The notes beneath the pieces were generated by a model. That model was not told the DNA's origin. It saw only the letters and a program-made list of their open reading frames with translations, and searched no databases. Below, in pieces: positions 5,142 to 39,796 of a DNA stretch of 64,000 nt. This stretch comes from Meiothermus sp. Lineage in GTDB: Bacteria > Deinococcota > Deinococci > Deinococcales > Thermaceae. The DNA is taken from positions 1,240,001-1,304,000 of the forward strand of contig NZ_BPIM01000001.1 in NCBI RefSeq assembly GCF_026004115.1. Direction: 5' to 3'. A program made the position numbers and the translations under genes. Each line of letters starts with the position of its first letter. Within the stretch, counting starts at the first letter, position 1.

Positions 5142-5310
5142 TGGTGTAATCGATGATCAGAAATAGCACAATCAGCATGAGCAGGGCCCCCCACCAGGGG
5201 GTGTTGACCCAGATTAGTACGAAAGTGCGCTCGAGCAGTTTCCACAGGATAAAACCAAATACCACCGTGGTCACGATGGCAGCCAACTTCTGGCGAATCT
5301 TTTGGCTCAC
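5113..5310 (-). CDS. Small two-helix membrane protein, 65 aa
   Basis: A 65-residue protein with two hydrophobic segments (about 11-27 and 40-55) separated by a short WVNTPWW loop, a positively charged N-terminus and a charged tail. No family is recognised. It lies between the two GNAT genes on the opposite strand; its 3' end overlaps the end of the first GNAT gene. Initiation is at ATG 5310, with no strong RBS visible. Confidence 0.6.
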   Translation of the reverse strand: MSQKIRQKLAAIVTTVVFGFILWKLLERTFVLIWVNTPWWGALLMLIVLFLIIDYTISRAFGVRD

Positions 5311-5338
5311 AGGCTTAGCTTAGCATCAGGAGCAGCGT

Positions 5339-6301
5339 ATGGTACCGAACCTGAACATTCGACCTTTTGAGGAGCGCGACTACCCCGCCATTGCCGCGGT
5401 GCTGATGGCCGCCTGGCCCGACGAAGTGCACACCGAAGCCGGGCTGCGCGAACACGATAAGCACGCCCCTGAGATCCGGTGGGGTCGCTTTGTGGCCGAG
5501 GTTGAGCACCAGATGGTGGGGGTGGGCGAGTACAGCCAGTTCGAGGGCATGTACCACCCACAAAAGTTCGCGGCCTGGGTCACGGTAAAGCCAGCTTTCC
5601 GCAGCCAGGGCATCGGCAAAGCGCTGTACCGGCGGGTTCTGGGAGCGATTGAACCCCACAACCCCATCTCGATCCTGAGCAGCACCCGCGAAGACCAGCC
5701 CCACGCCCTGGCCTGGCTCAAAAAACTGGGCTTTGCCGAGAAGATGCGCTACTGGGAGTCGCGGCTGGACGTAAAGCGCTTCGACTTTGGCCCCTGGGCC
5801 GGCAAGATTGAAGCTGTGGAAGCTGCGGGTTTCGAGCTTCGGAGCATGAAGGAGCTCGAGAGCGACCCAGCCTACAAGCAAAAGCTCTACGACCTCTGGC
5901 TCGAGGCCCGCCTGGACGTGCCACGCCCGGAGGAAATAAGCGAGGTGAGCTTCGAGGACTACTGCAAATGGGTGTTCGATAGCCGCTACTACCTGCCGGA
6001 AGGGCATTTTGTGGCCGTAGACCAGCACACCGGCCAGTACGTAGCCCTCTCCACCCTCTGGAAAACCGACAGCGACTACCTGCACACCGGCCTCACCGGC
6101 ACCCGCCGGGCCTACCGGCGCAAAGGGCTGGCCCTGGCCCTCAAGCTGAAGGGCATCCGCTTTGCCCAGGCCTACGGAGCCAGGGAGATTCGCACCGGCA
6201 ACGAGTCGAACAACCGCGCCATGCTCTCCATCAACGAAGCGCTGGGTTTTGTGAAGCAGCCCGCCTGGATCGACCTGGTCAAGGTTTTGAAGGAGGGTTA
6301 G
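5339..6301 (+). CDS. Double-GNAT acetyltransferase, paralogue of 4194
   Basis: GNAT-family acetyltransferase of 320 residues with two domains. The N-terminal domain has a canonical acetyl-CoA loop (FRSQGIGKALYRRVL, about residues 94-108) and the C-terminal domain a second one (YRRKGLALALKLKG). The C-terminal part is very similar to that of the 4194 product (TGLTG, ALALKL, NEALGFVK), so the pair looks like a local duplication in which this copy kept both acetyl-CoA sites. CAGGAGC precedes the ATG. Substrate unknown. Confidence 0.87.
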   Translation: MVPNLNIRPFEERDYPAIAAVLMAAWPDEVHTEAGLREHDKHAPEIRWGRFVAEVEHQMVGVGEYSQFEGMYHPQKFAAWVTVKPAFRSQGIGKALYRRVLGAIEPHNPISILSSTREDQPHALAWLKKLGFAEKMRYWESRLDVKRFDFGPWAGKIEAVEAAGFELRSMKELESDPAYKQKLYDLWLEARLDVPRPEEISEVSFEDYCKWVFDSRYYLPEGHFVAVDQHTGQYVALSTLWKTDSDYLHTGLTGTRRAYRRKGLALALKLKGIRFAQAYGAREIRTGNESNNRAMLSINEALGFVKQPAWIDLVKVLKEG

Positions 6302-38206: not shown

Positions 38207-38324
38207 GGTTTTCCTCCATTGGTTGGCTTGGGGTTTTTGGACAAAGCAAAGCCGCCAAACTGAGCCTTATTCTAAGGAATTCTGGGAAAAGTCAAGGGGT
38301 ATGCGAAAGCTATTCCGCAAAATG

Positions 38325-38698
38325 TTATAGAAAAGAGGGGGTGTGGGGGAGCTATAAAACCCATCCCCTTCAGGGGTGGGATACATGGACTCCCCCACGT
38401 GCCCCGCAGGGGCACATAGCACGATGGGTGGCCGATCTGCTAGAATTGTGCCTGGAAACAAAAGTTTCCGGGGTTCTTGAGAGTACAGGTATGGGGTTCC
38501 GCCCACGAAGCGCTGGGCGGGTAAAACCTGTAGCGTAGACCTCGGACGTGTGCGGCGAAAACCAAGCCGTGCATCAACGTCCGAACTACCGTGGGGCACA
38601 CGGGAAGTCACGCTTGGGGAGAGGGTGTAAGACCTACACATCGTGGGCAGTCCTCGTTGAACCAAGAATCCCACCGGCTTTAGCTGTGGGAGTGTCAA
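38325..38698 (+). mobile_element. ORF-less IS200/IS605-like hairpin element with omega-RNA-like 3' end
   Basis: About 370 bp between the ferredoxin and lysK genes with no gene but densely folded. Features are: outer arms GTGGGGGAG (38343-38351) / CTCCCCCAC (38390-38398) enclosing CCCATCCCCT/AGGGGTGGG; GTGCCCC/GGGGCAC (38399-38415); TACAGGT/ACCTGTA (38484-38532) enclosing CCGCCCA/TGGGCGG; TCGGACGT/ACGTCCGA (38542-38584). At the 3' end, GAATCCC, a CTTTAG loop, GGGAG and GTCAA (38667-38698) match the right end/omega-RNA of TnpB-type IS200/IS605 elements. No tnpA or tnpB survives. Known ends are matched by memory, not by search. Confidence 0.5.
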
Positions 38699-38719
38699 TC
38701 TGTCGGAATGCGGCCCTAA

Positions 38720-39796
<1,077 letters not shown>

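Follow-up and report, generated by a model that had tools for sequence, protein, structure and literature searches.

A gene-free IS200/IS605 element in Meiothermus that probably encodes a stand-alone, omega-RNA-like guide RNA with its own conserved 5' domain

Within the window analysed here, a stretch of 64,000 nucleotides (G000:C1:1240001-1304000) from a Thermaceae genome of 3.35 Mb, lysK is adjoined by a short insertion that is probably best explained as a non-autonomous IS200/IS605 element (of the PATE or MITE type) encoding a dedicated stand-alone guide RNA instead of a protein; gene-free elements of this kind probably supply the guide RNA themselves and rely on a borrowed nuclease. Judged by its sequence, it would be classed as an element among the PATEs, i.e. 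as a non-autonomous IS605 derivative, and as an RNA it would be omega-RNA-like. What appears, provisionally, to be new is a separate 5' RNA domain, conserved in two phyla, that is attached to various omega cores.

The borders were established by comparison with relatives. A blastn search of 50 genomes of the family using a 421-bp query gave homology with 38325 as its first base and 38698 as its last, with relatives, either full-length or partial, in 34 of the 50 genomes; the best of these, in a second Meiothermus, is 83% identical across the whole length (E 1e-124), and many others gave E values of about 1e-29 to 1e-67. The first-pass annotation, which had placed an ORF-less IS200/IS605-like element at 38325-38698 and would have been undermined by a lack of related insertion sequences in the genome or databases, was thus right to the base, the first four nucleotides being the target. 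When the two flanks were joined as a single query, uninterrupted sites were found in four relatives (G007, G013, G020 and G014). In G007 (L091) the junction reads AAAATGTTAT/TCTGTCGGAATG, and the other three sites are near-identical to it, with ATAT. The empty site in the relatives being TTAT/TCTGTCGG, TTAT is the target, the element proper is 38329-38698, and no target duplication has occurred; insertion 3' of TTAT without duplication is the tetranucleotide-specific mode of IS200/IS605 elements. Parsing of the left flanks placed family-1 ORF-less elements after TTAT in all seven cases, and those of a second family (see below) after TTAG in 26 of 27.

There is no plus-strand ORF of at least 80 aa within the element, and the 155-aa ORF on the minus strand matches nothing in Pfam; autonomous IS200/IS605 members carry their own Y1 transposase TnpA, which is absent here, making the element a derivative. 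Both of its ends match those of autonomous elements (L051-L062). The left 118 bp are 85-89% identical to the left ends of elements that contain tnpA (143 aa) and tnpB (about 399 aa) within about 1.75 kb; for 38329-38442 against the left ends of L006, L051, L052 and L053 the identity is 86-89%. The right 110 bp, closing with GAATCCC-hairpin-GGGAG-GTGTCAA at 38666-38698, match the tnpB 3' end of autonomous elements at 88% identity, the right ends of these elements overlapping the last tnpB codons. As is characteristic of this group, the ends bear subterminal palindromes rather than inverted repeats and are held in common with tnpA-bearing elements. Being ORF-less, repeated (full-length relatives are L040-L043, L048 and L050) and provided with the ends of a known autonomous family, the element has the hallmarks of a PATE. 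Its middle, 38443-38588, has no counterpart in autonomous elements, and the 5' RNA domain described below is absent from all seven of those tested. Table 1 collects the features.

Table 1 Features of the element and its borders (positions within the window).
Feature	Position	Strand	Basis or detail
TTAT target tetranucleotide (TAM, left cleavage site)	38325-38328	+	part of the ancestral site
Non-autonomous element proper	38329-38698		370 bp; directly 3' of TTAT, adjoining lysK
Left end (LE); hairpins near the terminus at 38343-38398 (inner hairpin 38359-38380) and 38399-38415	38329-38442	+	identity to autonomous LEs
Extended -10-like box TGC-TAGAAT (putative promoter)	38438-38446	+	transcription start expected near 38452
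RNA hairpin P1 (CUGGAAAC AAAA GUUUCCGG)	38452-38471	+	pairing in 54 distinct copies
RNA arm P2	38484-38490 with 38526-38532	+	compensatory changes
RNA arm P3	38499-38505 with 38514-38520	+	compensatory changes
Internal loop of the P2/P3 arm	within 38484-38532	+	AUGGGGUU / GUAAA
RNA hairpin P4 (CGGACG...GCGGC GAAAACCAA GCCG...CGUCCG)	38543-38583	+	family-1 specific
Omega-RNA core / right end (RE)	38589-38698	+	homology to tnpB 3' ends and phage copy
Core hairpin CCGUGGGGCACACGG	38589-38603	+	first hairpin of the region common to tnpB-linked copies
Covarying core helix	38621-38626 with 38650-38655	+	compensatory changes
GAAT; RE hairpin; TCAA	38666-38669; 38670-38690; 38695-38698	+	in core/right end
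Expected guide TCTGTCGGAATGCGGC	38699-38714	+	same as flank at empty site of four closest relatives

Evidence as to the nature of the right end comes from aligning the ORF-less copies with those linked to tnpB and those from phages: the core helix is paired in 98.9% of cells and four of its six pairs show compensatory changes (compensated variants are GAGGGU/GUCCUC, GCCGCC/GGCGGC and GUCUCU/AGAGAC). The same core occurs, at 74.6% identity, in the Enterocloster phage CB473P3, where it begins 11 nt past the stop codon of a 363-aa TnpB (Pfam OrfB_IS605, 1.8e-29), and its 5' limit at 38589 is the exact limit of homology with tnpB-overlapping omega-RNA; the core is therefore homologous to, and folds in common with, RNA adjacent to tnpB, and it ends at the element border, as an omega-RNA should. 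Taken together, the covarying helix and the phage core beside TnpB are good evidence that the right end would serve as a TnpB guide-RNA scaffold rather than only as a transposase recognition site, much as the omega-RNA-like 3' end of the first-pass annotation had suggested. Recognition by TnpA should require only the last 35 or so nucleotides; here 110 nt of right end are kept, and sister elements retain the RNA while stop codons interrupt their tnpB frame (alignment A1). The guide start proposed earlier, at 38699, agrees with the border at 38698. TnpB guides are about 16 nt long; the flank-derived guide is matched within the window only at its own site, and the flank differs from copy to copy.

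The phage core loci are L311 (OP172753.1:2744-2860) and L312 (OP172757.1), in two Enterocloster phages; in one of these, CB457P1, no TnpB is annotated beside the core, which may there be a stand-alone guide RNA. Separately, L061/L031 (G019:C105) differ in their 5' half and have in common the GGCGAAAACCAGGC hairpin and the omega core, and are possibly a third ORF-less family.

Upstream of the core, the conserved domain P1-P3 was assessed by the extent of pairing, bearing in mind for all that follows that alignments fitted to a model lean towards that model and that shuffles break the relatedness between copies. Among 54 distinct Thermaceae copies, 95.0% of cells are paired, as against 82.1 +/- 0.6 when shuffled, with compensatory changes in 15 of the 21 pairs; for P1 alone the figures are 97.7% and three of six pairs. 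In 36 distinct cyanobacterial copies 98.4% of cells are paired (shuffled, 62.9 +/- 1.5), there are 182 double-change cells as opposed to 54 in shuffles, and sliding the columns by 1-3 leaves 24-51% paired. For P2-P3, compensatory changes were found in 11 of 14 pairs in Thermaceae and cyanobacteria together, and in 13 of 14 in cyanobacteria alone. Across the phyla, in an alignment not fitted to the model, pairing is 95.9 vs 75.3 shuffled, and this, together with the size of the effect, makes a chance origin of the pairing implausible. The fourth hairpin, P4, is conserved and partly compensated (alignment A1), and the fold z-score for 38452-38698 is -3.15. The unpaired segments AGGGGGUU and GUAAAA are nearly constant among copies, which argues for a function as RNA beyond that of DNA hairpins. 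Thus the nested hairpins without a gene that were originally described are indeed seen at the left end, but in part they belong to a separate RNA domain found in ORF-less elements of two phyla.

Of 57 distinct copies, 43 have a -10-like box (TANNNT) directly before P1 and 23 have TGNTANNNT at the box, compared with 0.3% of random 16-nt windows from the same loci, while no promoter passes a scan for consensus sigma-70 sequences. Given the position of the box just before P1, transcription would begin near 38452, cross the core and extend into the flank.

The domain is widely distributed. Full-length ORF-less relatives with the same middle are L040-L045, L048 and L050, and a second ORF-less family, with ends TTAG...GTCGTCA, has a diverged version of it (examples are L007 in the same genome, L143 in Thermus and L064 in Meiothermus). 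A covariance model of P1-P3 (R1) found 78 places in 19 of the 50 Thermaceae genomes, of which 22 are in Thermus scotoductus (DSM 8553), the highest copy number per genome, and gave no matches in other Deinococcota. Cyanobacterial copies came to light through a genome-wide pattern scan and were then confirmed by R1 (E down to 1e-7); pattern matches in Desulfobacteraceae, Nitrospirae and other non-cyanobacterial MAGs were not confirmed by the model. With a joint covariance model of the P2-P3 core (R2), that core was found in 28 of 390 sampled cyanobacterial genomes. In most of the cyanobacterial copies examined the domain is followed by an IS605 right end (GAATCCC-hairpin-GGGAGTGTCAA and variants) without a transposon ORF; inspected copies retaining both ends are ORF-less IS200/IS605 elements, and some copies lack one end or lie at contig ends. 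The domain is joined to two end types in Thermaceae and to further types in cyanobacteria. Of about 115 domain loci, none has a match to a TnpA profile nearby, and no more than two have one to a TnpB profile, in one case on the opposite strand and in the other a tnpB disrupted by the element. Family-2 TnpB is present in 15 of 19 genomes with the domain vs 13 of 31 without it (Fisher p = 0.018, uncorrected for shared ancestry), a modest co-occurrence.

On an IMG/VR viral contig (L326, about 5190-5570, minus strand) an intact family-1 ORF-less element lies inside a tnpB ORF; this insertion, and the presence of up to 22 copies per genome, point to mobility. Many of the elements in alignment A1 (L040, L042-L045, L048, L050, L163, L176 and L007), but not the window copy, carry GC-rich palindromes some 20-26 bp long (e.g. 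CCGCCCCGCCTTGGCGGGGCGGGG and TCGCCTCGCCACGGCGAGGCGA), nested at corresponding places in their loops; these resemble the small mobile repeats that, in Haloquadratum, are reported to target IS605-type elements. The genome that contains the window has a third copy of the RNA domain, now decayed (L190, G000:C1:3093078-3093196), from a branch in which the P3 hairpin is much longer (compare L171, L174 and L191). Matches of L082-L084 to the P3 stretch are due to chance, and lie in cysteine desulfurase-like genes.

The supply of proteins in this genome does not fit the window copy. There is one intact tnpA+tnpB element, L006, with target TTAG and right end GGGGAGTCGTCA (the TTAG/GTCGTCA type); the only Y1 TnpA found is of that end type, not TTAT/TGTCAA, no other TnpB was found at E 1e-20, and L039, a weak PF07282 match, offers no usable TnpB. 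Autonomous elements of the TTAT/TGTCAA type do exist in other Thermaceae (G001-G004, G006 and G018). Of the earlier proposal that a non-autonomous element is served by TnpB and TnpA encoded elsewhere, the non-autonomous part therefore stands, but no matching partner was found in this genome, full copies with matching ends being present in those others. A matching transposase in the same genome is usual for a PATE, though not strictly required; with its cognate TnpA/TnpB pair missing, the window copy is orphaned, and probably immobile at present.

Several other explanations were weighed. It is rather unlikely that the element is simply a passive PATE, an internal-deletion derivative of tnpA/tnpB moved by TnpA, in which the hairpins assist single-stranded DNA transposition or have no role, and the omega-like end has survived only because it includes the right end. 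PATEs formed by deletion of the core are known (PMC3119063, PMC7290912), the reading frame in the window is still TnpB-tail-like (CINVRTTVGHTGSHAWGEG...), and the RE hairpin sits within the omega core; however, a deletion derivative should hold pieces of LE, tnpA and tnpB, and the middle matches neither gene save for a short tnpB-like stretch, is conserved in two phyla with covarying helices and near-constant loops, and is followed by a core kept 110 nt deep even where the tnpB frame is broken in sisters. That stretch is a match of only about 21 nt around GCGAAAACCAAGC in tnpB (nhmmer, E 0.7-0.9), so tnpB was rejected as the source of P1-P3, though it may have contributed to P4. Much less probable is a catalytic 5' domain, an intron or self-cleaving ribozyme removing the element from transcripts in the manner of an IStron, with the omega-RNA as second module: IStrons join a group I intron to tnpB/omega-RNA (Zedaveinyte 2024, as cited in PMC11870625), and the conserved loops do resemble a functional site, but the domain is small (about 100-140 nt), its start lies not at the end of the element but behind the internal promoter-like box, and Rfam gave no match to an intron or ribozyme, even with E values of up to 3-10 admitted, the group I intron core included.

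We would give very little credence to co-option of the element here as promoter or leader of lysK. The insertion does split an ancestral TGTTATTCT, possibly an extended -10 of lysK (38319-38328 / 38699-38740), and the element's own -10-like box points towards lysK, whose transcription may now originate in the element, the guide region forming its leader; but the insertion is found in this genome only and other copies lie at unrelated places, so that conservation of the RNA would be left unexplained. The proximity to lysK, mentioned in the first-pass annotation for a kept structured RNA, is incidental. It is similarly improbable that the RNA guides a repressor-type (TldR-like) relative of TnpB or acts as an sRNA, for although other proteins could use stand-alone guide RNAs, the guide matches only its own site in the window and every copy has another flank.

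As to known systems, stand-alone IscB omega-RNAs (HEARO without an ORF) are likewise guide RNA loci without a nuclease gene and act in trans, but IscB is an HNH system. Searches of Rfam gave nothing above chance level at the element for any family, RAGATH-18 and HEARO among them. Like the PATEs of Haloquadratum walsbyi (PMC3119063) and Halanaerobium (PMC7290912), the element is ORF-less, has subterminal palindromes of the IS605-end kind, lacks a target duplication and would be moved in trans, and the Halanaerobium PATE also retains a tnpB tail and right end; unlike PATEs as described there, it has a covarying, cross-phylum RNA domain upstream of a complete omega core. With ISDra2-type omega-RNA (reRNA) it has in common the 3' core, the GAATCCC-hairpin-GGGAGTGTCAA end, a guide that would begin at the border and a TAM equal to the insertion tetranucleotide. 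That RNA is normally processed from tnpB mRNA and overlaps the ORF (PMC10278001), whereas the element here is ORF-less and has its own 5' domain and promoter-like box. The RAGATH-18-derived reRNA of IS607 TnpB is also a structured TnpB guide RNA independent of coding sequence, albeit of another transposon family; 64% of RAGATH-18 RNAs adjoin IS607 TnpB (PMC11061315), implying that about a third do not. No description of such an RNA in Thermus, Meiothermus or cyanobacteria was found in the open-access literature, and its novelty is to that extent provisional.

Returning to the guide-RNA reading that we favour, transcription, binding by TnpB, cleavage and action in trans are each predicted from sequence. 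A promoter at about 38438-38446 would give an RNA with its 5' end at about 38452 that spans the core and extends into the flank; TnpB supplied in trans would bind the core and take the first 16 or so nucleotides of flank, from 38699, as guide; TnpB so guided would cut TTAT-flanked empty sites, whereupon recombination would restore the element after its excision; and TnpA, also in trans, would excise and move it. This follows the known logic of TnpB, in which a flank-derived guide and cleavage of empty sites promote retention (PMC10278001; PMC11870625). The 5' domain probably stands in place of the tnpB mRNA, the usual precursor of omega-RNA, and might act as a 5' cap or have some role in stability or loading; this step is a guess, if the simplest one. 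A broader proposal, to which we would give an even chance, is that ORF-less IS200/IS605 elements of Deinococcota and Cyanobacteriota represent a widespread and undescribed class of stand-alone guide RNA: an ancient 5' RNA domain which they share would in each case be fused to the omega core of the TnpB being parasitised, and the elements, selfish and equipped with RNA alone, would borrow the transposase as well as the RNA-guided nuclease. If this is true, RNA alone would suffice for a transposon to persist, supplying its own homing guide and hijacking TnpB and TnpA; the conserved 5' domain would make it directly testable how TnpB can load a guide RNA with a source other than the TnpB mRNA, and the domain would be a candidate for use as a scaffold in thermophile omega-RNAs that act in trans.
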